From positions 62,001 through 126,000 of the forward strand of contig OW569345.1 in NCBI GenBank assembly GCA_937625935.1: a stretch of DNA of 64,000 nucleotides, given 5' to 3'. Positions within the stretch are counted from its first letter, which is position 1. The number at the start of each line of letters is the position of its first letter. Source of the stretch: Tetramitus jugosus. Its lineage: Eukaryota > Heterolobosea > Eutetramitea > Acrasida > Vahlkampfiidae. The notes under the pieces were generated by a model that worked only from the letters and a program-made list of their open reading frames with translations, was not told the origin of the DNA and did no database searches. Positions 9,762 to 60,970 of this stretch are shown in pieces. The translations under genes were made by a program, and so were the position numbers.

Positions 9762-12410
9762 ATGAACAACAACAATAACATTTCTCAGATCAATCCCATG
9801 TTCATTCCACACAGTACTCAACACGAATCCATGTTCATTGGTCGTCTGTTGAGTGCCCACAAGATGATTTGTCAATACAGTGATCCTCTGTTGCAAGCAA
9901 GAGCCCTTTCTGTGATCCCAGAGGACAAGCTACGGTACCAAGCCCAGTTAAAGTATGAACAAGAAAATCGTCAACCACAAGATTCCATTGCACAGCATGA
10001 CATGGATCACTATGTCATTAAAGAGCTGCTCCACTGGTTCAAATCAGAGTTTTTCAAGTGGGTAGATGCTCCTCCGTGTGATCACTGTGGTCACTCACAG
10101 ACAAAGGCCATTGGTCGCAGTGGGCCCAACACTGCTCAGGAGAGAGAAGGCCTGGCAAGTGTCGTTGAAGTCTATCAGTGCTCTTCGTGCCAACAAATGA
10201 CTCGTTTTCCTAGATACAATCACGCGAGTAGGTTGTTGGAGACGAGAAGGGGTCGTTGTGGCGAATGGGCACAATGTTTTACACTCATGTGCATTGCAAT
10301 GGGATACAAGGCTCGTTTTGTGAACGATTGGACAGATCATGTGTGGACAGAGGTGTTTATTGAACGGAGATGGCAACACGCCGATAGTTGTGAAGCGACG
10401 TTGGATGCGAGTCAAATGTATGAATCTGGTTGGGGCAAGAAGCTGAACATGATTGTGGCAGCGGGTTTTGACGAGTTGGTCGATGTGACTCGAAGATATA
10501 CGAAACAATTCTATACGGAGGAGTTTCAAATGAGAAGAAGACAACTGGGAGTCTCAGAAGACTTTGTTGCGCAGTGCTTGACCAATATGAATTATCAGTT
10601 GCAGTTTGTAATGACGCCGCAGAAGATTCAAGAGCTGAATTTCATGCAGACGCAAGAGCAGGAAGAGTTGAAGCAGACGCAACGAGATGCAATGGATTCG
10701 ATCAAGGTGGAAGAATTGAGAGGTAGACAATCTGGTTCAAAGCAGTGGGTAGAGAGCAGAGGAGAAGGTGGTAGTTCATCCACGGAGAAGAAATCCATGT
10801 GCATTACTCCACCCATAGGCGTCGATATCAAGCAATTAGATTCATGGAGCCGCGATCACCCCAATCTATTCCAAAGCGAGAGTTCAAGCTTTTCATTCCT
10901 AGCATCGGCAAGACAGTTTAGAGAGGGTGATGAACCATGTGCACGATTAACTCCCAACCAGACATCACAAGTCGGAGCAGTTTGGTATCAGAAAAAACTG
11001 GACATATCTCAACTGGGATCACTCTACATATCTTTCACATTCCGAACAGTGGGAAGAGGAGCTGATGGATTTGCATTTGTGTTGCAAGCAGATTCATCGA
11101 GTGCCATTGGTGAGGGTGGATGTGGCATAGGATACCAAGGTATCAAGAATAGTGTGGCAATAGAGTTTGATACCTATTGTACGTACGATCGATGCAATGA
11201 CCCCGATGGCAATCACATATCGATTCAGACGAGATATTCAGAACCCAATTCTGCTCATCATCACTACTCTCTTTCTTGTACCAAGAATTTGGAATCGGAC
11301 TATGGAGTCATGTTGAATGATGGCAAAATTCACCATGCTAAGCTTGTGTATGATCATTCAACAAAGAAAATGCATGTCTCAGTAGATGGCCTTTGGATTC
11401 TCAGAGATGTTCAGATCGATTTGAACAAGGTATTGAATCAGAGTAGTTGCTGGATGGGTTTTACTGCTGCAACAGGTGGATTATGTCAGGCTCATGATAT
11501 TCTAACATTTACCACATGCTCGACTACCACAGTTGGTGGTGAATCGAGTCGCAACCGTACTGAATATGTGCTCTATAGTGCAGGCAACGTTGCAGGAATT
11601 AAGAAAAAGTTAATCGAGTTCAATTCATCATTGCTTGATCCTTCCACAGCCTTGAGTGGGGTTGAACTGAGCACCTTGACAAATGTCATGAACTGTCTTG
11701 ATAGTGTATCTCACTCCTTCAAGTGGAACGATGAACTACATGGTATTGTATTCAAGATTTTGGATACATGGCCTCAAGCAAAGCACTTCCCAGTGCTAGA
11801 CTTGATTCGATTGTGTTGCCATAGATATTCCACTGCAATGTGTGATTACTATTCTCAGCGGAACTCTTTCTGTTCAAAGTTACTATTGGACAAAAAAGCG
11901 CAGCCTGCTGCAAACCGAATGATTCTCTATCGTTTGCTTTGCAATGCACTGGGTTCAACAGAATTAAGACTCAAAGTAATCATGCCTGAAATTCGTGTGA
12001 TCACTGACAATGTTTTGGAGGAGAGTTCTTCTTGGTCTCTCTCTGCAAGTGACAAAGCACCAGTTCGAGAGCCATTCTTTGCCTTTGTTCATAATCTTGT
12101 ATTGATGCTTAGTGAAATCAAGGAACATGAAGAAGATGTCTTGGTTCAAGTACTAAATGCGGAGATATCCTTGTTGAAGCAAGAGCTGGGGTCTAGTGAT
12201 TTGGAAGACAAGAATATCCATCTGATGCTCAGATCTCTCGTACATTCCCTCCAGATACGACCTGACGAAGAGGCAGAAGAAGGTTCCGTCATCAAGTTCA
12301 TTTTGATTTCAATGGACATTCTGGAGTTACTTACTGCTATAGCTTCCAATCCGAAGATCTCATCTACCACGCAACAGTTTGCGCAAAAGGTGTCAGATCT
12401 TTTACAGTAA
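9762..12410 (+). CDS. peptide:N-glycanase with L-type lectin and PUL-like domains
   Basis: 882 aa. Residues about 85-260 are the PNGase transglutaminase-like core: a zinc site (CDHCGH and CSSCQQ) and a Cys-His-Asp triad seen as RGRCGEWA (C166), DHVWTE (H193) and HADSCEA (D208). The family removes N-glycans from misfolded glycoproteins in the cytosol during ER-associated degradation. A linker rich in Gln, Glu and Ser follows. Residues about 355-600 look like an L-type lectin fold (GADGFAFVLQ, GIGYQGIKNSVAIEFDTY, HHAKLVYD, CWMGFTAATGG). The last 270 or so residues are helical and match the style of a PUL domain (HGIVFKILDTWPQ), which in PLAA binds Cdc48/p97. The lectin could hold glycoprotein substrates. 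It lacks the N-terminal PUB domain of animal NGLY1. Confidence 0.85.
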   Translation: MNNNNNISQINPMFIPHSTQHESMFIGRLLSAHKMICQYSDPLLQARALSVIPEDKLRYQAQLKYEQENRQPQDSIAQHDMDHYVIKELLHWFKSEFFKWVDAPPCDHCGHSQTKAIGRSGPNTAQEREGLASVVEVYQCSSCQQMTRFPRYNHASRLLETRRGRCGEWAQCFTLMCIAMGYKARFVNDWTDHVWTEVFIERRWQHADSCEATLDASQMYESGWGKKLNMIVAAGFDELVDVTRRYTKQFYTEEFQMRRRQLGVSEDFVAQCLTNMNYQLQFVMTPQKIQELNFMQTQEQEELKQTQRDAMDSIKVEELRGRQSGSKQWVESRGEGGSSSTEKKSMCITPPIGVDIKQLDSWSRDHPNLFQSESSSFSFLASARQFREGDEPCARLTPNQTSQVGAVWYQKKLDISQLGSLYISFTFRTVGRGADGFAFVLQADSSSAIGEGGCGIGYQGIKNSVAIEFDTYCTYDRCNDPDGNHISIQTRYSEPNSAHHHYSLSCTKNLESDYGVMLNDGKIHHAKLVYDHSTKKMHVSVDGLWILRDVQIDLNKVLNQSSCWMGFTAATGGLCQAHDILTFTTCSTTTVGGESSRNRTEYVLYSAGNVAGIKKKLIEFNSSLLDPSTALSGVELSTLTNVMNCLDSVSHSFKWNDELHGIVFKILDTWPQAKHFPVLDLIRLCCHRYSTAMCDYYSQRNSFCSKLLLDKKAQPAANRMILYRLLCNALGSTELRLKVIMPEIRVITDNVLEESSSWSLSASDKAPVREPFFAFVHNLVLMLSEIKEHEEDVLVQVLNAEISLLKQELGSSDLEDKNIHLMLRSLVHSLQIRPDEEAEEGSVIKFILISMDILELLTAIASNPKISSTTQQFAQKVSDLLQ

Positions 12411-33219: not shown

Positions 33220-36200
33220 ATGGATACCTCTCATCTCAATCCACAAGTACAAAAGTTATTGGAGGAAACTGGTACCTCTATCAAAGATCAAAATGACTTG
33301 TTGGCTCTGTCAAACGTTTCTGTTCGAGAATTGGCCAAGCTCTTTGATGACCTTGCCAAGAACTTGAAGCAGAATCAACCAAAGAAGAGAGAAGAAGTGT
33401 TTAGAGTATGGAAGGACTCTGTGGTTGAGAAGTACATGGAGAAGAAGGAAGCAGAGAAGAAAGAGGTCAGAGTAGATGCGACTGAGCCTACTACCTCCGC
33501 GTCAGATGCCTTGATCTCAGAGCCAAAGCAACTTTCAGAAGACGAATTCAATAATGCAAAGCGTCAATTCATGCAAAGCGCAATGGCACTTCTTGAAGTT
33601 GAGAGTGAAATTAGAGACTTGAAGAACCGAATGAGAACTACCAAGGATTCAAGCAACCAACATTTAAGTAACCAATTGGAGCAGTTGTCTAGAAAGTGTG
33701 CTGATCTCCTGCTCGATGAAAACAGCAAGAGAGATGCCATGTATTACACAACCTTACTCAAGAAGTGTTTGGGAAGCGATAGAATACCAGTTCGCTCATC
33801 GCTTCCAGAAAGACTTACTACTATCGACTCTTCTCTTCGGGTTGATGTGATCAAGCATGTCTTTGAAGATGAACTAGTGCTCCAATTTGAGTTGAGAAAT
33901 ACTTCAAACAACGTCTATAATAATGTGCAAGTAGAATGCTTCGAGTCAATCGAAGGACTAGAAGGAAACTACAAGAGTGAATCAGTTGATGTTCCTGCTC
34001 TTGACTGCGGTTTCACTTTCTTGAAACTGAAGAGAGTCGGTGAGATAAGGTCCGGGCAGATAAATCCTGTTCTCAAGTATACTTCTACATGCCATCAATC
34101 GTCTGTACGTATGGGAGTACTACCTGTCAATATCATTGATTATTTAACGAACAGCAACAGTGAACTGCCGAAACATTTTGTCTCAAAGACTATTGAAATC
34201 GATTCGACAGTGCTTAATGAGGTTTTGTCGTATCTTTCGGATGCACCACACATATGTGATGCAAATAACAATGGCAACAAGATTATCATATCAAAAGCAC
34301 TTGGACAAAACTCGGTCCTGTTCGAAGCGATACTCAACTCAAACACGCAAAATTATTCAATCACAACAAAAGGAGCTTCTTCGGATTGCAATCAAGTTGT
34401 TGACGCTCTAAAAGATATTGGTGGAATATTTATGGAGAGGAAGGAGAAGGTAGAAGACAAGGAAGAGCAACTATCACGACAAAATACTCTAAGTTTGATT
34501 CCTCAACTTCAGCATAAGGGAACACCACTTAAAACTTCCAAATCAACTTCACTGTCTTCAGTTGAGGGAGCACAGATCAAAGTAGAAGTAGTGAAGCACA
34601 CTCACCCTGATAGTATCGTGATTCAGTTCGTTTGTACCAATTTAATACCGAACACTATCTTACAGAATGCGGTCGTGGAACACAATTTAGATCAAGTGCG
34701 AGGTCTGTATGCTGATTTTTCCTTAGAAGCAGACCTCCCATATAATGTAGAAACGTCCATCTACTCAACACTAGCACGTGATGGTTTGGAGCTGCCTTCA
34801 GGAGTCATATCAAATACTCTCAATTTTGAGTTTATCAGCAATGGGGAGAATGAGGGAGAAGGATACATCTACTTGCAAACCATTGATTTGTCAAAGATGG
34901 ATTTTGTCAGAGATAACTCTGGAATAGATTTTGATTGTGTATGGTCCTCATTGGGATGTGAACAAGCAGAAACCACGAATCTGGAGAATGTTGATCTTCA
35001 AGGAGCCGTATCCAGGTTTGTAACACAATCTGGTTTGAATCCATTAGAATCTACCCGTGTCTGTTCTGGCAAGGATAATCATACTTTATCGTTTGCTGGT
35101 ATTACAGTTGATGGAGATGATTTGTTGATCCAAGCGAGAGTAAAGAGAGTGGATAACGGATCATTGATTGAGGTTGCAGCCAGATCGAATAAGCACGAAA
35201 TTATGCCGCACTTAGTTTCTGAAATGGTGAACAACCTGAATACTCAAATTAAGAATGTTGAGAACAATGCAGGAACTGTCACATTGAAGAAGAATTTAAG
35301 CGATCAAGAATTTTCAGAGGCAGCATTTGACCGTGTCTATGCTGCCACGACTCCTTCACCAGACAGCACCAAGAAGTTTTCATTGGAAGCAATGGTCTCT
35401 TTACCAGATATTGTCAACCATTTCGTCCAGAAATCCCATCTGTGTATTATCAAAGGAGGAGAGGTAGTGCAGCCAGACACCACACAACATGCTCTAAAAA
35501 TGTACAACCCTTCACGATCTGTTCTTGTTCAGTATCAGTTCAACGTTACACCAGATGGAATCAATGTCGAAATTAACATTAGAACTACTGATGCAGAGAG
35601 CGAGAAGCATACGAGTGAACTAGCATTACAGTACAATGATCTCGTTCAGCCCAATAATTCCTCAATCAGAGAGAGACAAGCACAAGAATCATTTGATGCT
35701 GTTCTATCAAAAGTACCCAAGATTACTTCTATGGGTGTTCCGTTTGCATCATCTGAACCAACTATTTTGACTGATCCAGATGATGATATGCACGTTGAAT
35801 GCACAAAACACATCTACGCCCAACATCTCGTTCTTCAGTATGATATTCAGAATAAGAATGACGAGATGGAAATTGTTCAACTAGCGACGGAGATTAGTTT
35901 AGACGGAATAACTGGGCTGACTAGCATTGAAAACTTGGAAACTGGACCTTTTGTGGAACAGAAGGGTACTGCTTTTGTTATTTTAAAGATTGACAATACC
36001 TCTGAGCTACCATTTGGAAACCTTCCCAATTTATTGAACTTACAGAGCGGTGGAAACACCTACCAAATGAAGGTTGAAGATGTCGAACTGACTCCAATGG
36101 ACTTTGTTGTCGATTTCCCTCAAGTGAACTTTACTTCTGAGTGGAATCAACTATCATCACAGGGAGATCAAGATTTATCAACCAGCTATCCGTTTAGTTC

Positions 36201-37284
36201 GTCGATGCAACTATTTGTTGAAAAGCTGATATGTAGTTCCTTCTTGGCGCCTTGTGGAAACACAGGTAGAGTGTTTTCTGAAGATCATCACACAGTCCAC
36301 TTCTCTGGTAAGATGAGCACTGGTGATCTAATTTTAATCAAAGCAGATATCATCAAACAGGAAGGACAAGTAATTATCACCTTTAATTCTAGATCTCAAC
36401 ACCAAAGCGCTCGATCAGGTGTGCCAAAGGGATTATCAAATCGCTTGAATGTCATCATTCAGCAATACTTGAAGATGGAGGAAGATTTGAACAACCCTTA
36501 CTTTAGAGACATCTTCTCCAAGATTGCTCCATTGAAAAGATTAGGTGCTCCTCACTCCACAAAGGACCCAATACTGCTTTCAAAGCCAGACTCGGATCTC
36601 GTTGTCAGAGTTATTAAGCACACTTGGCCAGAGAATATTGTGTTGCAGTTTGAGTGCACTAACATGAATCCTGCAGTGGAACTAGAAAATTTAATGGTTG
36701 AAAGTGAAATTGGAGAGGAGTTGTCTCTTCAATTCCTTGTTGAAGCTGGTTTACTTCTGTACAATGAACCCGAATATGCGTTCGTAGCTCTAGAGAAGAA
36801 TGCCAGTACATTGCCTGTTACATCAGTTCGAAATGTTCTGTCTTTCCAATCTGTAGGTGTCGATCCAAGAACTGGAGAACAAACAGGTCAAGTCAAACAA
36901 GAAAAAGTCGACAATTTGCTCGATGTTGACATTCAAATCACTGATTACTTTAGCGGAAAGACAACCACTGACTTTACTACTGCATGGGCTGAACTTGGAC
37001 AGGACAATGAGAATTCAAAGTCTTATACTCTGCCACTTGAGATTCAAGATGCAGTCAATCTGTTTATCTTGCAAAGTACGATACCTCCGATCCCAGATTG
37101 TTCCATCACAGTATCTGGCAGTGCACACGAACTGTCATTTATTGCGAGAATACACAATGGAGCCGAAGTGTTGTTCAAGGCCAACTTTGCCGCCGCTGGA
37201 AACCATTCCACTGAAGTCACAGTCACAGCTCGAACCGAGTACGACTTTTTGAAGGACGTTCCAGACTTTATCATGCATCAATAA
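33220..37284 (+). CDS. tandem gamma-COP appendage-domain protein
   Basis: 1354 aa, one exon. The first 190 residues are helical and charged (KKREEVFRVWKDSVVEKYME), with no adaptin/HEAT trunk. The rest repeats the coatomer gamma appendage (beta-sandwich plus platform). Four copies show the hallmark IKH-x4-LVLQF-type strand: IKHVFEDELVLQFEL (K212), VKHTHPDSIVIQFVCTN (K459), TKHIYAQHLVLQYDI (K863) and IKHTWPENIVLQFECTN (K1133). Copies 2-4 also carry the D(F/Y)-type linker and FxxxWxxLG start of the platform (VWSSLG, EWNQLS, AWAELG). An extra platform-like piece sits at about 720-815. In COPI the appendage binds ARF-GAP and other partners. A trunk-less multi-appendage protein could act as a multivalent adaptor or decoy; that is inference. 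Confidence 0.82.
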   Translation: MDTSHLNPQVQKLLEETGTSIKDQNDLLALSNVSVRELAKLFDDLAKNLKQNQPKKREEVFRVWKDSVVEKYMEKKEAEKKEVRVDATEPTTSASDALISEPKQLSEDEFNNAKRQFMQSAMALLEVESEIRDLKNRMRTTKDSSNQHLSNQLEQLSRKCADLLLDENSKRDAMYYTTLLKKCLGSDRIPVRSSLPERLTTIDSSLRVDVIKHVFEDELVLQFELRNTSNNVYNNVQVECFESIEGLEGNYKSESVDVPALDCGFTFLKLKRVGEIRSGQINPVLKYTSTCHQSSVRMGVLPVNIIDYLTNSNSELPKHFVSKTIEIDSTVLNEVLSYLSDAPHICDANNNGNKIIISKALGQNSVLFEAILNSNTQNYSITTKGASSDCNQVVDALKDIGGIFMERKEKVEDKEEQLSRQNTLSLIPQLQHKGTPLKTSKSTSLSSVEGAQIKVEVVKHTHPDSIVIQFVCTNLIPNTILQNAVVEHNLDQVRGLYADFSLEADLPYNVETSIYSTLARDGLELPSGVISNTLNFEFISNGENEGEGYIYLQTIDLSKMDFVRDNSGIDFDCVWSSLGCEQAETTNLENVDLQGAVSRFVTQSGLNPLESTRVCSGKDNHTLSFAGITVDGDDLLIQARVKRVDNGSLIEVAARSNKHEIMPHLVSEMVNNLNTQIKNVENNAGTVTLKKNLSDQEFSEAAFDRVYAATTPSPDSTKKFSLEAMVSLPDIVNHFVQKSHLCIIKGGEVVQPDTTQHALKMYNPSRSVLVQYQFNVTPDGINVEINIRTTDAESEKHTSELALQYNDLVQPNNSSIRERQAQESFDAVLSKVPKITSMGVPFASSEPTILTDPDDDMHVECTKHIYAQHLVLQYDIQNKNDEMEIVQLATEISLDGITGLTSIENLETGPFVEQKGTAFVILKIDNTSELPFGNLPNLLNLQSGGNTYQMKVEDVELTPMDFVVDFPQVNFTSEWNQLSSQGDQDLSTSYPFSSSMQLFVEKLICSSFLAPCGNTGRVFSEDHHTVHFSGKMSTGDLILIKADIIKQEGQVIITFNSRSQHQSARSGVPKGLSNRLNVIIQQYLKMEEDLNNPYFRDIFSKIAPLKRLGAPHSTKDPILLSKPDSDLVVRVIKHTWPENIVLQFECTNMNPAVELENLMVESEIGEELSLQFLVEAGLLLYNEPEYAFVALEKNASTLPVTSVRNVLSFQSVGVDPRTGEQTGQVKQEKVDNLLDVDIQITDYFSGKTTTDFTTAWAELGQDNENSKSYTLPLEIQDAVNLFILQSTIPPIPDCSITVSGSAHELSFIARIHNGAEVLFKANFAAAGNHSTEVTVTARTEYDFLKDVPDFIMHQ

Positions 37285-52206: not shown

Positions 52207-55200
52207 TTAACTCCATTTATTGAGTGAATCCTCTCGTTTGAGACTCGAGCTCGAAAGATTGAAGGAGTTTGCACCACTGAAAGAGTTCTTTCTTTCGAGA
52301 GCGGGGGCAGTGTTGGAGGACTTGTTTGCATGTGGATCTTCCCACTCACCCAATTCGCCTTCTTGCTCATCCAAGTCGTCTTGATCGTTGATGTGACGTA
52401 CTTTGTTCTTTGCATCTGATTCTTCCAGAGTCAAAGAACGCAATATTGGGAAGAAGGAGATATCGTCACCCTCGGCCATATTGAAAATGTATTGTTCCAC
52501 ACCAGTGTATTCTGTCACTTCCTTTTCGAATAGATAGATCAAGAAGAATACATAGTCCCACATGTAATGTTCATGCTTGATATGATCGTGGAAGGTAATA
52601 CCTTCGTTTGCCTTCATGTCGAATCTCGCTCGGTCAATATCGCAGATGAAACACTTGTCTTTGATGAGTTTCTCAGTGTTTTCCGCATTCTGTCTAATAT
52701 CCGCAAAGGCATCCAGAATGATACCAAACACAATATTGATCAACACAATAATGACAGCAAAGAAGAAGGCCATATCGAGCACAAATCGCAAAGGACTCAC
52801 AACAGGATCCATGATATCTTCCCAGAAACCACCACCACGCAGACCATAATTAAAGATGGCGACAAAGCATTGATACTGGGTGTCACACAATCGAGTACCA
52901 TCGCCCAACGTAAAGTCAGACGCCGACCAACTAAAGTATAGCACTGAGAAGAAGAAGACCGAAAAGGTCATCAGCACACCTGTCAATGCCAGAGACTTCA
53001 CATTGTTTTGAATGGCTTGTAGAACACTTCGGAGAGTAGGAGCTCTTGCAACAACTTCGAACAGCAATAGGCAATATATGAGTGGGGAGACTGAAAATCC
53101 GAGGAATGAAATACCGAAGAATAGCAAAAATGTCCACATTTGAGTATCTTTCAGAGTGTAGGATAGATACTTGAACACGAACTCGATATCAAAATCTTTT
53201 TTCTCCCATTTTGTGTCCTTCTCGAAGCTGAATTGCTTTTTCACTTTCAGCTTAGCATAAAAGTACACATAGAGTCCGAATAGACCCGCAGCCATGAACA
53301 GCTGTATGAGACCTAAAATAAATATGGCCATCTCGGCACCTGCATGAGTGAAATCACCGCTTAGTATCGCATCTGTTGAGTCTTGAGTGTCGACACCTGG
53401 AATTGGAATGATACCATTTTCAGTATCGAACGTCTTCTTATATGTCACACACACGATGATATTTAGTAGCACTGAGAACAAGAAGACTAAGATTCTCAAC
53501 TGACTCCAGTTTCTTTCCACAAAGTTCCAAGTAAATGACTTGAGCGCCTTTGCTGGACTAGTGAATAAATGCTTGATGTGTGTTGCATTGGTCTTAAAAT
53601 TTTCATAATGTTCCATCTCTACTCTAAACTTGTTAGTTTCTTCGAACAGGGCTCTCACCTTGCTCTTTGCACTCTCTCTATCACAATTGATCAGAAAATC
53701 CTGCTTTGTTTGCTCGATCATATTCGAAGAGATCGATGGTCTCTCGAAGTACACTCTCTCCAAAAAGTTATTTCTCAATATTTCTATTCTTCCTGTTCTG
53801 TCTTGATATGGCTTCAAGTTTTTGCGTTGTTGTTCATTTGTGAACCAGCGATTCAAATTCTCATCCACTTCTTCGTCAAATGTTTTCTTATCTCTGAAAG
53901 TATTCAGCAGGAAGTACACATGCATGCCTAATCTCTCATAAGACTTCTTTACCTTGTTGAGCACGGATTGTTGAGGTTCCTTAGATCCAGCCTTTTCTAG
54001 ATCCTCTCGGATCCGAGTCAAGAGCTTCGAATCATTAGCACCAGTACGCACGATCGCACATTCCGTAAGAGTATCCTGGAGGGCAGTAATGTTGATAGAA
54101 CTACGCATCAATCCATATAGATTCTTATCTCTGTTTCCTTCGAGCAGAGATATCAAGTTAAGTATAATCTTATATCGTAGCTTGAGGACTGATCGAAGTG
54201 ACAGCTCTGGATTGTCATTTTGAAGGATATCGTTCGACATGAAGTATAGCTTAGGACTAAGACCTAAAACTTGTTGATTATTGGTGCATGGACCTTGAAT
54301 GAATTCGATTAGTGTATCGAAGCATTGAACTGCGGTCCCAATCGTGTCTCCATCTACATAGGCTTGCAGGGCCAAAATATATTGAAGACTCTCTTGAACC
54401 AGATTGACAGACAAGTTGTTCGTGTGTTGATTATTCACAAAATCTTGCATCTCTCCAAAATGACCCTCACACAACAACTGAAGCAATCTCAAAATCTGTT
54501 TGATATAGCCAACTTCTTCAAAATTATCACCATCAACTAATTTGACTAGATCCATTGATTGAAGATCATTGTTAAGCGATTCTGATTGATTTGTTCGATG
54601 AATTTGTTGAGCAATTAGCACTTGCTGTTGCATGGACTTAATATTTTCAACATCACGATTCTTTAAGTCTCCAATCTTCGTAATTCGATTTGAATCGTGC
54701 AATGCTTTCAGCTTCAACATTCGCTTCTTCATGAAATCTCGTTTCTTTTTGATTTCTCTAATGGCTAGACGAATTCGATCACGAAGTGCTACGAAGAAGG
54801 GTTCAGAGTGCGTGTTCGTAAAGATGAGATAAATATTTCTCTGAATAATCTTGTTACCATCAATAAGCAGGAGAATTCCAAGTTCCAATGCTTCTCGCAC
54901 AATACTATTAGTGCTGCTACACACCAGCTCGAGAACAAGAGCAGGTGCTTCCGCGTCGGCCATCATCTTTAGTTTCTTCTCCAAGATTGATTCCTTACCC
55001 TTTCTCGATCGAGGTTCATTCTCACTCTCTTCCTTAGCATTGAGTATGACTGTTTGTAGTGTCTTCAAGGCTTTGAGGGTGGCAAAAACTGCTGCTTCAT
55101 TGTATCCTGAAGCGTACATTCTTCGAAGAACTCTCACGAGAGTATTCAAATCTCCTTGCTCGTTATATAGTTTAGCCACACTAGGCATATCCGAAATATT

Positions 55201-58200
55201 GAGCAAATGATACTTTAGTCTGATGATGAGGGATGAGTATTGATTACAGACACGTTCATCATTCTCCTCAAGTTTGGGAGGTGATGTTCTCGATTTCTCT
55301 ACGGTTTTTGCAGCATTTCTCATTGTATCTTGCAAGAAAGTGAGAACCAATTGACGGCAGGATGAGCCCAGATTAGCAATAACGGCATCCTTCTTGTACA
55401 TAGCCTGAACAGTTCTAGTTAAAGAGGTTCTTTGCGCTGGATCGGCCGTCTTTCGATAGATCGAAATAATCACATTGAGAAGTTGCTCGGTCATACGATC
55501 ATGAACGTCACTCTTCGTTCGAAGAGCATTCGTGTTCACATGCTTTGCATAATAATTCAGAATGAATGGTAGAGCTAAGTTGAACACATAGTTATCATCG
55601 ACATGGTATTGGGGTTCCGTTATCGAGATATCATCAAGTGTCACGATTTCCGTTACTACAGATGCGGATGCTTGAGAGGAAGACGCTTTGGATGGAGTAG
55701 CAGTGGATTCATCGACCATAGAGTTTTTGTACTGTTGCAGAATAGCATTATTGGCAGCCAATTTGGCTCTTTTGGATACACGAGGCTTGACTAAGTAATA
55801 ATTCAATTCCTTGCAAATCTGATCCATGAGAATGAGCAGCTTGGTAGTCGTCGTGATCTTAAGAGCCTCAATTTTTTCAGTATTGATGTAGACTTCATCG
55901 AGGAAACGAAGGAGAGGATCTCTCACTTCCGGAATCAAATCACTTTCAGTCAGCTGACTCAATACATCATCAACACTCAACAGAGCCTGGAGTTTAACCT
56001 CACTCACATGATTTTTACCATCAGCACAATCACACAGTAGCTGAAGCAAGGTGATATGATAGTTAAGGATTCCATCTGGCTTTGTGATGTGTTCGTTGTT
56101 TTGAATTCTTCTATTTCGTTCTCTCAAACCTTCTTCATCACTAAAAAGAATCATGACATCCTTCTTTCTTTCCATGAGATTCTTAGTTACGAGCGTTTGA
56201 TTTCTTTTCAATGGTCTTCCATCGCTTCGTACCAGATGTCTCAAAAACGTTAAATACTTTGAGGACAATCTGCTTTCGGCCATACTATCAATAAAGAAGC
56301 GAATATGTTTTTCTTCGATTGTACTGCAAAGAGTTGGATTATCCTTCACAATTTCACATAGTAGTGTACACATATCGGGTATAGAAGTGAGACGAGAGAT
56401 CAAGAACTCCAAGTGCCTAAATAGTACACCTTGGTTGTCCTGATTGCCCCTGACAAACTCGGTGAGCATCAATATAGAGTACTTCCACAGAGTATTTTGA
56501 GTACTAGTGTCACTGAACGATCTCTGAAGAATTGAAATCGCAAGTTCATGGGCTTGAAGATTTCTCAAAATACGCTGAGAACGTTGTCCATTCTCTTCAC
56601 AATCCTTCATGATGATAAGGATCAAGTTCCGAATATCAATGGCCTCTTGACCGCGAACTTTAGCAGCTTGTTCACCAGCAAGGAACTGACGAAGTCTCGA
56701 TGTATTCTTGTTCAAGATGAGATAACTCGTCAACATCGCATGTGACACAAGCAACTCTACTCGAGGCAACAACTTGCACAATTCTTCCTTTTGATTATGA
56801 GCTCTGAATAGAAGTTTCATGGCGCTTGTAGCAAGGTCCTGGTCTTCATAATTCATCAAGTCTTGCATCACACGATTGAATACTTGCTGGAATTGAGGAT
56901 CATTGAGCCGTGAGCTCGGCTTGATATTGTCACCCGTATAGGCAAACATTTTATGAACCCACTCTTGTTCCATTCTTGGTTGATCCACCAGTTCCTGTTT
57001 TTTCTTCGTTTGCAGATTCTCAGAGAATTGCTCTGTCAGATATGAGATTCTGATGTTTTGCACTTGGTCGAAGAAGATGTCAAAAATCTTACATATTTCG
57101 AGCTTAATCGAAGATATGACAACATTTTGTTCATCTTGCACATATCTCTCAGCAGCTGTGAGTGTCTTTTGATAGGAGACATCAGATTTACCATCAAGAA
57201 CCTGGAAAAGTTTCCTGGTAATCTCATCGATCTGGTCAAAGTTTGAATAAATACCAAATTCAAACAAAGTACGGCAAATATATGTTAGCATAAATATGAA
57301 TCTATTGCTCTCGATATCTGCCTTGTCCAAAGATTGATGCTTTGAGTAAAATCGAGTCATAAATTTCTTCAATTCGTCCATATTGGCCTCTTGTTGGCCA
57401 AATCTTCTTGCGTCCTTTCTCTTCTCTTGATTGTTCTGTAATCTTTTAGGCGTCATGTCTCGAGTCAAGACAATAACTGGCTTCTTCTCATAGAATGAAG
57501 TATCGATATAGCAGTGGAATAAGAGCTGACAGAAATTGGATCTCAGTCTAGGAGGCAATGAATTGTCGTCAATACAACTTAGGATTGTATCAAAATTAAT
57601 GAGCTGGGATACAGTCTGAATATTTCTCGTATTTCTTCCCATACATAGCTTTCCGAGCAGCTCAATCGAGTTTTGGAAGAATTCAAGTTGATTTCGATCA
57701 AACCTTCGTACAGTACGAACACTTCCTGAATCCAATGTAAAGAAGTCCTTGAGCGGCAGAGAACGATCACCAAAGTTAATCATTATCACATCATTGTCTT
57801 TGTGCGGTATCATAAGCTGCCCTTTTGAACCTGAGTCGCCCTCCAAGAGAATATGGGCAATAAAATCTTGGTTTTTGGTCACAGGAGTGGAGTTGACATC
57901 ACACAGCGCACACAAGAAACCCAAATAGTCTGAACTTCTGCTCGATGTTGATAACAAATTGACGAAAAAGCGAATTTCCTCTGTCGTGATCTTGTTTAGC
58001 AGTTCGAGATTATTTGAAAGAATCTCAGTCAATGCACTAGACACACCCAATCCATACTCAATCTGTGATTGGATGAAACCAATATGTCGAGACATGTACA
58101 GACCGTTCACAGCATTCAGCTTACAGCATTGTTTGATGAATCGATATGCGTACCTGAACATTTCCTTGTAGGTGAAGAAATGCTCCTCATGAATATCCTC

Positions 58201-60970
58201 AGGTCTGAGATAACCATTCTCGAATGGTAACTTCAAGAGATCAATCACCTTGTCAATCATTTTCTGCTCTCTCAAATAGTTTTGTCTATTATAATAAGGA
58301 ATACCCTCCCTTCTCATTGGATCTGTTTCATTCGACTCGGTACAGAACATAATCAACTGCACTAATGCCTTGGTCACTTGATTACACTCGGTTTTCTTCA
58401 TCTTTTGCTTCACTTTTAATTTGTTGACCATGCTGTCCATGATGGGAGCAATGGACTGGATGAATAACAAGTCGTCAATCTGCTCCTGTGGTACAGTACG
58501 GACTACCACTACATCCTCTTCACTCATCACACTGGACGTTTCCAGCTTTATAAAATGACTTCGTTTCGCTCTCGCAGATGCCGCAGATCGAACATTCATA
58601 GTAGATAGCGACCTCGTGAGATCTGTTTTGTCAGATGTCACAGCATGCATCCAACTATTCGTTATGCTGTGCTTGACTCTCATAAAAGAATCGACTGATA
58701 TATGTCCCTTCGACTTACTCGTAGGACATAAAGTAAACAACGTAGAAGTAGCTGTCGGTTCATCAACAAATAGTTCGTACTTCTTTGCAACTTCTGTTAT
58801 GGAGCGTCTAACACCATTCGCAGCGAGAACATTGTTTTGTAAAACTTGTTTTCGGAGCAGATCCCAACCGCGACCTCCCTTTCGAGCTTGGGAGAGGTTG
58901 AGAGAGGAAGCACCAAGAAAACTGCTAGCACGCCTTCGGTCGCTGGGTGAAAGACCTGATTCAGCCTCTTCAGTTGAATAATCGTCAACATCTTCCAGAG
59001 TAGATGAAATGGAATCGTCATCGTTACTCGCTCTCTCCAGCTCGCTATCATACAATAATTTTTCAGATGATCTAGTAGTGTACAACTGTACTTCCTCCTC
59101 ATCGCTAAACTCCTCATCGCTGTCCTGAATGACAGGAACTCGTACGGCCATATATCTGTTTGACGCAACATGCTTCAATCGATACATGTCATTCCATTTT
59201 AAGCAACCACCTCGCGAGGGATCATACATTTCAATTTCGAACATTGTGTTCGAACTGTTTTTCGCCGATTCGTCCAAATCAGACTTAATCTTCACAATCT
59301 GATTCCGGTCATCCACCGTCATAAAACCTTCGGCTTCCTTGTGATAGAGACGAATGACATCACCTGCTTTGATCTTTTTTGCAGATTCAATGCCTAAGAA
59401 GGGTGTAAAGAGTCTCATTCTCCACTTTGCTTCATTTGTATCAGTACTCATATTGACCTCAGGCTTATTCTCGTGCTTGTACCTCAATTTACTCAAATGT
59501 ACATATTGATTCGATTTTCTGCTCCACAAGCGAATTTGATCTGAGATGAGAACCTTTTGACCTTCGGTTCTAAACTTGTAATATGGCATAATGTGAAACA
59601 CACTGTTCGAATTTCCATTTTCATCCAATGTCAATCTCATGCAATCTTTTTGCACTTCGGCAGATTCTCTAGCAATCGTCAAATATTTGTTCGTTTTCAA
59701 GTGTAAGAGCTGAATCGCTTGTCCATACGAGACTACTTTTCCGATGCTTCTCTCTGCTTCCACTCGATTCCTGATTGCATCAATATGATTTTTGTTAGTT
59801 TGATCGCAACAACAAAAATAAAAACGTGTTGCAATACTACATACTGTTCGGCTTCTTTTTCCATTTTAATCTGCAGTGCCTGTAGCTCTGACTGTTTCTC
59901 AACCAACAACACGGACGACAAACTGTCCATCACGTGATTACTACCCGTATGATTTCCCAATATCGAATCTCCCATATTGATTTCAGCCATTGACATTTGA
60001 CTCGTTATACTCGGTGGAGTTGCCACTCTCATTTGACTCAACATGGCCGATGTAGAGCTCATTGGATTCGTTGCATTTTCCATTGCAACATTCGATGATG
60101 ATGCTACTCGAGCCAATGTCGCATTGGCATTGTTATTATTCATGTTGTTATTGCTACTGTTGTTTGCACCACCACTCGAAGCACTAGCAGCAGAGGAATT
60201 GTTGGCAGCTAATGAGGCAGCAGCCGCTGCAGCAGCAACATATTTGCTCACCTTTCGAAAATCAAACTCTTTCAATCCAAGTGAATCAAGTCTCTTATAA
60301 AACGTGTTGGCAGCAGTGTATTGATTCTGATTTTGAACAACGAATACGCATTCTATTGTTGTTCATGTTGTGTTTGTTATGTGTGTGAGTCAGTTGAGTT
60401 TGATATGATCAAAAAATCAAAAAAAACATGAGAGAGCACCATACAGGCAAGCATACCTTTAAAATTGGATGGCAATTGTGATTTAGAGTTGGTCTCAATA
60501 GCTCCACACCTGTTGATCAATAATCACAAGATGGAATTCACAATAAAACAGTGTCAATCAGATGCTCATGTCGATCGACACAAACAAAGCTTCAACAATG
60601 AAACAAACAAAAAAACAAGAACCAAATTTTGACAGCAACACACGTACTTGGTATTAAAATTCTGAATACCAGATATGGACAAAAAGGCATATCCCGTATC
60701 CATATCCATATAAAAACTGATTTGATCACCGATTCTCAATGTCCACGTATCATCAAACTTTGATGACGATGTTCGAAATGAACTACTACTACTACTATTA
60801 TTCCCACCATTGTTGCTATTGTTATTGTTGTTATTATTGTTACCATTTAGTAGATTGTTATTGCTATTATTGTTGTTATTATTATTATTATTGTTGTTGT
60901 TATTGTTTTGAAGAGACAGAGGCTTCATGCCCTGTTCCAACATGGCCCTCTCCACTAAATTCTGAAACAT
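52207..60970 (-). CDS. inositol trisphosphate receptor-type calcium channel, 4 exons
   Basis: Exons, 5' to 3' on the minus strand: 60648-60970, 60457-60509, 59845-60352 and 52207-59770. Introns of 138, 104 and 74 bases (GTACGT, GTATGC, GTATGT starts; AG ends) keep frame, giving 2815 aa. The N-terminus (LRIGDQISFYM, ECVFVVQNQNQYTAANTFYK, then VVSYGQAIQLLHLKTNKYLT) is the IP3R/RyR N-terminal domain, interrupted by an Ala/Asn/Ser-rich insert. MIR and RIH-type helical regions follow. Membrane helices lie at about 2385-2680, with pore NYGLRGGGFWED and gate helix IIVLINIVFGIILDAFADIR. The CFICD plus HDHIKHEH zinc finger is present. These channels release ER calcium. IP3 binding cannot be confirmed by eye. 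Confidence 0.92.
60780..60910 (-). repeat. AAT/AAC triplet run (poly-Asn) in IP3R exon 1
   Basis: AAT/AAC triplets on the minus strand code for two Asn blocks of about 8 to 14 residues split by SNNNLLNG, then Ser runs. They lie before the conserved WTLRIGD start of the IP3R fold. Length is likely to vary between strains. Confidence 0.65.

Follow-up and report, generated by a model that had tools for sequence, protein, structure and literature searches.

The array gene and its product

Within a 64,000-nucleotide stretch of the Tetramitus jugosus genome (contig OW569345.1, positions 62,001 to 126,000; hereafter the window), an uninterrupted reading frame of 1354 residues occupies 33220-37284 on the forward strand. 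Judged from sequence comparison and structure models, its predicted product is a tandem array of four gamma-COP-type appendages, or ears, and one solo platform, without the adaptin trunk (Table 1). Codon log-odds in the gene's frame are +0.16 per codon, against 0.08 to 0.24 for eight reference frames, and are negative in the remaining five frames. A protein from a metagenome, P0002, begins at the same place and is equally long, with substitutions at 19 of the 1354 residues. An in-frame stop lies 24 codons 5′ of the ATG.

Table 1. Features of the array gene and of its paralogue elsewhere in the genome (iE, independent E-value)
Feature	Position	Strand	Basis
Whole gene, tandem gamma-COP appendage protein, 1354 residues	33220..37284	+	Single open frame, codon log-odds, metagenome match
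N-terminal helical domain, residues 1-80, common to the C52 paralogue	33220..33459	+	35% identity over residues 1-186; helices in model
Predicted long helices, possible coiled coil, residues 107-184	33538..33771	+	Low-confidence model; heptad a/d count
Ear 1, residues 190-400: beta-sandwich and degenerate platform without Trp pocket	33787..34419	+	Sequence and fold model
Ear 2, residues 419-667, pocket Trp W575	34474..35220	+	Whole-appendage profile iE 2.6e-41; 28/40 conserved columns
Solo platform, residues 695-802, Tyr in Trp position	35302..35625	+	PF16381 32.6 bits (cut-off 31.2); leave-one-out 23.7 bits
Ear 3, residues 821-1071, pocket Trp W975	35680..36432	+	Whole-appendage profile iE 6.4e-40; 19/40 conserved columns
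Ear 4, residues 1095-1342, pocket Trp W1256	36502..37245	+	Whole-appendage profile iE 2.2e-44; 24/40 conserved columns
Paralogue, open frame, 2581 residues	C52 191897-199642 (L006:998-8743)		Genome search

Pfam matched COP-gamma_platf in four stretches of the protein (E 1.1e-67) and Coatomer_g_Cpla in four (E 1.1e-48), matches to both subdomains of an appendage, sandwich (PF08752) and platform (PF16381). No adaptin family was found by Pfam, and the sole further family at E up to 1 was 4HBT, under its cut-off. All three matches in the PDB are gamma-COP; the best is to ear 4 (1pzd, E 3.7e-23, best stretch 1096-1272). A preliminary description, made from the letters of the DNA, had placed four copies of a hallmark KH strand at K212, K459, K863 and K1133, where they indeed lie, with five residues after the KH and not the four first given. 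The resulting pattern, KH-x5-[LI]V[LI]Q[FY], was absent from all 20,000 shuffled versions of the protein. Three of the strands were said to be followed by FxxxWxxLG; the three FxxxWxxL segments are there (W575, W975 and W1256), but the final glycine is missing from the W975 copy, which reads FTSEWNQLSS. The extra platform proposed between copies 2 and 3 was recovered around FDRVY at residue 703, its leave-one-out score comparing with a best of 6.5 bits in 500 shuffles.

Ear 1 qualifies this assignment, with a clear sandwich and a platform that is marginal by sequence (6.9 bits, best shuffle 5.8). We regard the platform as degenerate; it rests on a fold model, a check proposed at the outset, whose best matches are COPI appendages and whose structural matches also include GGA ears. 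Overall, the tandem, trunkless layout is confirmed as an observation, and its interpretation as a gamma-COP appendage protein is supported.

Ahead of the ears, some 190 charged helical residues had been proposed, in agreement with a D/E/K/R content of 35% in residues 1-190 and with a low-confidence model in which they are mostly helical. Residues 1-186 align with the paralogue on contig C52. In a genome search with this N-terminal domain, only the window gene and the paralogue fell under E 0.1, with a third stretch at E 0.16. Its helices have block predicted local distance difference test (pLDDT) scores of 67-82 in the model. Against the PDB, its best match reached E 0.41; from the little structure matching made there, no fold is named. 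Further helices are modelled at residues 107-140, 143-164 and 167-184. The best 28-residue windows, near residues 112-151, have L, I, V or M at 5 of 8 heptad a/d positions, which hints at a coiled coil within residues 107-184 through which the protein might oligomerise.

Trunk, coatomer and ArfGAP genes in the genome

We searched 26,348,746 bases in 56 contigs for an adaptin trunk that a missed 5′ exon might supply to the window gene. Match counts in this profile search are lower bounds: at least 26 Adaptin_N matches occur, and none of the 26 listed is on contig C2, which carries the window gene. Eight neighbouring open reading frames held no adaptin (six had no family, one was TOG/HEAT-type and one PPR-type). 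Together with the upstream stop, these results uphold the proposed absence of a trunk. The separate, normal gamma-COP that the preliminary description advised looking for is on contig C5, with a trunk, one ear and upstream exons; its ear has named relatives in Naegleria, Willaertia and Percolomonas. A third platform match, on contig C13, was rejected as a member of the array family: it is below cut-off and lies inside an adaptin gene with its own trunk.

ArfGAP domains matched 12 times in the genome. One exon, on contig C12, was compared with the PDB and the others were inspected by eye. The best matches of the C12 exon are ARFGAP3, ARFGAP2 (ZNF289) and GLO3; ARFGAP1 scored about 10 bits less, and by this comparison the genome probably has a Glo3/ArfGAP2/3-type gene. 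As a separate observation, upstream of an ArfGAP gene on contig C20 (L030:2-1003) there is a stop-free stretch of 334 residues with repeats of about 30-35 residues (IKGLFMSDAEKI..NKILNGLGKASQAAGHI), which runs off the end of the locus.

A giant paralogue fused to an inositol 5-phosphatase

The paralogue on contig C52 also lacks an adaptin trunk. Pfam found PF16381 in nine stretches, PF08752 in two, a beta2-adaptin-type platform match, PH_29 and Exo_endo_phos2 (PF22669, E 9.2e-54). With hand-set boundaries and leave-one-out scoring, 13 platforms were counted; they score between 23.4 and 89.4 bits, and their best shuffles reach 3.9 to 8.5. Eleven solo platforms come first, then two ears (in the first of which the profile covers the sandwich over about 50 residues only), then PH_29 and lastly an inositol 5-phosphatase catalytic domain, of which Pfam found no counterpart in the window protein. 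The C-terminal part matches the phosphatase-C2 unit of SHIP2 (E 1.5e-49), SHIP1, the 72-kDa 5-phosphatase, OCRL, the type II 5-phosphatase and synaptojanin, and the SHIP2 alignment includes the stretches GDLNYR, CDRILW and SDH, which we take to be the 5-phosphatase catalytic motifs. In the whole genome PH_29 matched once and PF22669 seven times, five of them over cut-off, including the one in the paralogue. With its 13 appendage platforms and fused phosphatase, this giant may be the more striking of the two proteins.

In a BLASTP comparison, the end of the window protein with the solo platform, ear 3 and ear 4 (residues 763-1351) is collinear with residues 1361-1942 of the paralogue (25% identity, E 1e-29); ears 1-2 also align with this ear pair, at lower significance (E 6e-9). 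This collinearity suggests a common ancestor of both arrays with an N-terminal domain, a platform and two ears. In pairwise scoring, ear 3 matches the first ear of the paralogue and ear 4 the second, yet each of ears 2, 3 and 4 obtains a higher score with gamma-COP ears than with those of the paralogue. Taken alone, the platform of ear 4 has its best score with one of the paralogue's solo platforms. A tree of the ears had long branches and good support at 3 of its 15 inner branches, and did not place them. The main evidence for common descent of the arrays is therefore the N-terminal domain, together with the collinearity. We infer that the two genes may encode a small family of multivalent docking hubs for gamma-ear ligands of the ArfGAP2/3 type, one of them coupled to phosphoinositide turnover.

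When 7999 candidates beyond this genome were scored against the window protein, only P0002 and one gamma-COP came up. Since this search missed the gamma-COPs of Naegleria and Willaertia, it does not show that arrays are absent from other Heterolobosea. A search with the paralogue found no relatives among 8000 candidates, a PHROGs search for viral families gave 0, and a scan of genome contigs for prokaryotic relatives gave 77 pattern-matching stretches, none of them confirmed. The literature searched, mostly as titles and abstract openings and with few subscription journals, held no description of a tandem-appendage layout, and nothing on an appendage domain with an inositol 5-phosphatase and coatomer or on tandem-repeat appendages in protists.

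The ligand pocket

In mammalian gamma-COP, the FxxxW pocket around W776 is reported to bind ARFGAP2, and an ear with the W776S change does not (PMC2171037). Binding of Glo3 to COPI is likewise described as going via the gamma ear (PMC6737914), and in the COPI coat the sandwich base binds beta'-COP while the platform is exposed and reachable by partners (PMC5482573). We numbered residues as in mammalian gamma-COP, from matched PDB chain positions, and took as conserved the 40 columns that deviate in no more than one of 12 gamma-COP ears. Ear 1 keeps 10 of these 40; the counts for ears 2-4 are given in Table 1. The FxxxW pocket is found in three of the four ears, ear 1 having L and F at those positions, and F772, W776, H826 and R859 are all retained in ears 2-4. 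Across the 18 platforms of both array proteins, W776 is the most informative of 102 columns (12 W, 4 F, 2 Y), F772 ranks second (15/17) and R859 fifth (13/18). On sequence grounds, ears 2-4 and the 9 of 13 paralogue platforms that have W at the pocket column look fit for pocket ligands. An acidic E-D-E stretch of the sandwich, at 748-750, served as a marker of our own rather than a published criterion: each of its positions is found in at least 11 of the 12 gamma-COPs, and the four ears together retain 1 of 12.

Other genes in the window

Two other genes in the window deserve mention. At 9762-12410 (+), a frame of 882 residues combines a transglutaminase-like core, an L-type/legume lectin domain and a PUL domain, an unusual mix in one open reading frame; its product is perhaps, at a guess, a lectin-guided peptide:N-glycanase. 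At 52207-59763 (-), a frame of 2518 residues encodes a homologue of inositol trisphosphate/ryanodine receptors, in which the domains Ins145_P3_rec, MIR, RIH, RIH_assoc and Ion_trans were matched.

Discussion

We propose that the window protein, an array of gamma-COP-type appendages without a trunk, acts as a multivalent docking hub for gamma-ear ligands, a reading to which we give about an even chance (roughly 0.5). The tryptophan pockets of its ears would bind ligands of the ArfGAP2/3 (Glo3) class or similar peptides, and its N-terminal helices would multimerise the arrays and may pair the window protein with its paralogue. T. jugosus is said to have no stacked Golgi bodies (PMC11106597), and a tubular Golgi marked by COPI is reported in Naegleria (PMC5963838). 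At such an unstacked heterolobosean Golgi, to which the arrays may be linked, they could concentrate COPI regulators, with the paralogue adding phosphoinositide 5-phosphatase activity. Rather unlikely, as we judge it, is a much fuller version of this scheme, where the Tetramitus arrays form a family of trunk-independent COPI hubs. Chains with up to 13 platforms, joined through an undescribed N-terminal domain, would hold ArfGAPs in dense assemblies on the unstacked tubular Golgi, one member would couple them to phosphoinositide turnover by its 5-phosphatase, and a single polypeptide would do the job of the regular coat lattice in cells with a stacked Golgi.

Several points weigh against the docking-hub proposal. 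The ears are 15-31% identical to gamma-COP ears, and ear 1 and the solo platform are without the pocket tryptophan. In ears 2-4 the acidic stretch at 748-750 is kept at just 1 of 9 positions, and because of this loss their ligands, or the contact with beta'-COP, may differ. Our measure of column conservation is biased toward rare letters such as tryptophan, and the conserved pocket aromatics could have a structural role as an alternative to ligand binding. Support for the coiled coil is weak. Residues 1-1090 are poorly modelled (mean pLDDT 45.8, from 6 rows), and the structure matches of this model are weak evidence. In yeast gamma-COP, mutation of the less conserved FxxxF is reported to have no detectable effect (PMC2262067).

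Divergence of this kind, with the acidic stretch lost and a tree that does not place the ears, would also fit ears co-opted for other ligands, whether endocytic, endosomal or cytoskeletal, in a protein with no link to COPI, a possible though unlikely explanation. OCRL and synaptojanin, both of which have clathrin/AP2 links, are among the 5-phosphatases related to the paralogue's domain. The FxxxW motif of AP2 ears is described as binding clathrin-coat regulators (PMC2262067). Against co-option, the Pfam matches over cut-off and every PDB match are gamma-COP, and the four pocket residues persist in ears 2-4. The protein might instead be a decoy, a soluble ear array that draws ear ligands away from coatomer and so reduces the ArfGAP activity on COPI coats. 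It has neither a trunk nor, by Pfam, a known membrane-binding domain, and in mammalian cells an overexpressed free gamma ear, but not the W776S ear, is reported to disrupt the Golgi localisation of ARFGAP2 (PMC2171037). The PH-like domain and 5-phosphatase of the paralogue, however, point to delivery of an activity rather than soaking up of ligands, and overexpression of the lone beta-COP appendage or platform in yeast gave, as described, no detectable phenotype (PMC2262067); we consider a decoy improbable.

That the gene is an artefact, whether as a pseudogene, through an assembly error or as a gamma-COP with its trunk in a missed 5′ exon, is scarcely credible. We found no point in its favour, and it is opposed by the intact frame with gene-like codon usage, the near-identical P0002, the lack of listed trunk matches on the contig, the upstream stop and a paralogue with the same N-terminal domain and likewise no trunk. 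The source assembly is described as HiFi with a quality value (QV) of 56.7 (PMC11106597).

The usual view of coat appendages is that they serve large coat subunits as terminal recruitment modules. In the arrays they have turned into repeat units of free-standing proteins, and one of these proteins also has a lipid phosphatase attached. Since an aromatic residue, mostly tryptophan, occupies the ligand-pocket position in every one of the 18 platforms, the arrays would offer a natural test of whether ear multivalency alone is enough to recruit COPI regulators, and this in an organism reported to have no stacked Golgi.

The window protein shares with gamma-COP (Sec21) the PF08752 and PF16381 appendage, the KH strand and the FxxxW pocket. 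Unlike gamma-COP, in which a HEAT trunk is followed by one ear, it has four ears and an extra platform, and the trunk that assembles with zeta-COP and Arf1 is missing. The C52 paralogue is alike in its N-terminal domain and collinear C-terminal part, and differs in its 11 solo platforms before two ears, its PH_29 and its inositol 5-phosphatase. GGA adaptors provide another case of an adaptin-type ear without an adaptin trunk. Their layout is VHS-GAT-hinge-gamma-ear with one sandwich-only ear, whereas in the window protein several ears each join a sandwich to a platform, and the Pfam search (E up to 1, HMMER filters on) listed neither VHS nor GAT. By role, the arrays may lastly be compared with GORAB/Scyl1, described as a COPI scaffold at the trans-Golgi in which Scyl1 binds the gamma-COP appendage (PMC6328613); Scyl1 is an ear ligand, whereas in the arrays the ears themselves would scaffold.

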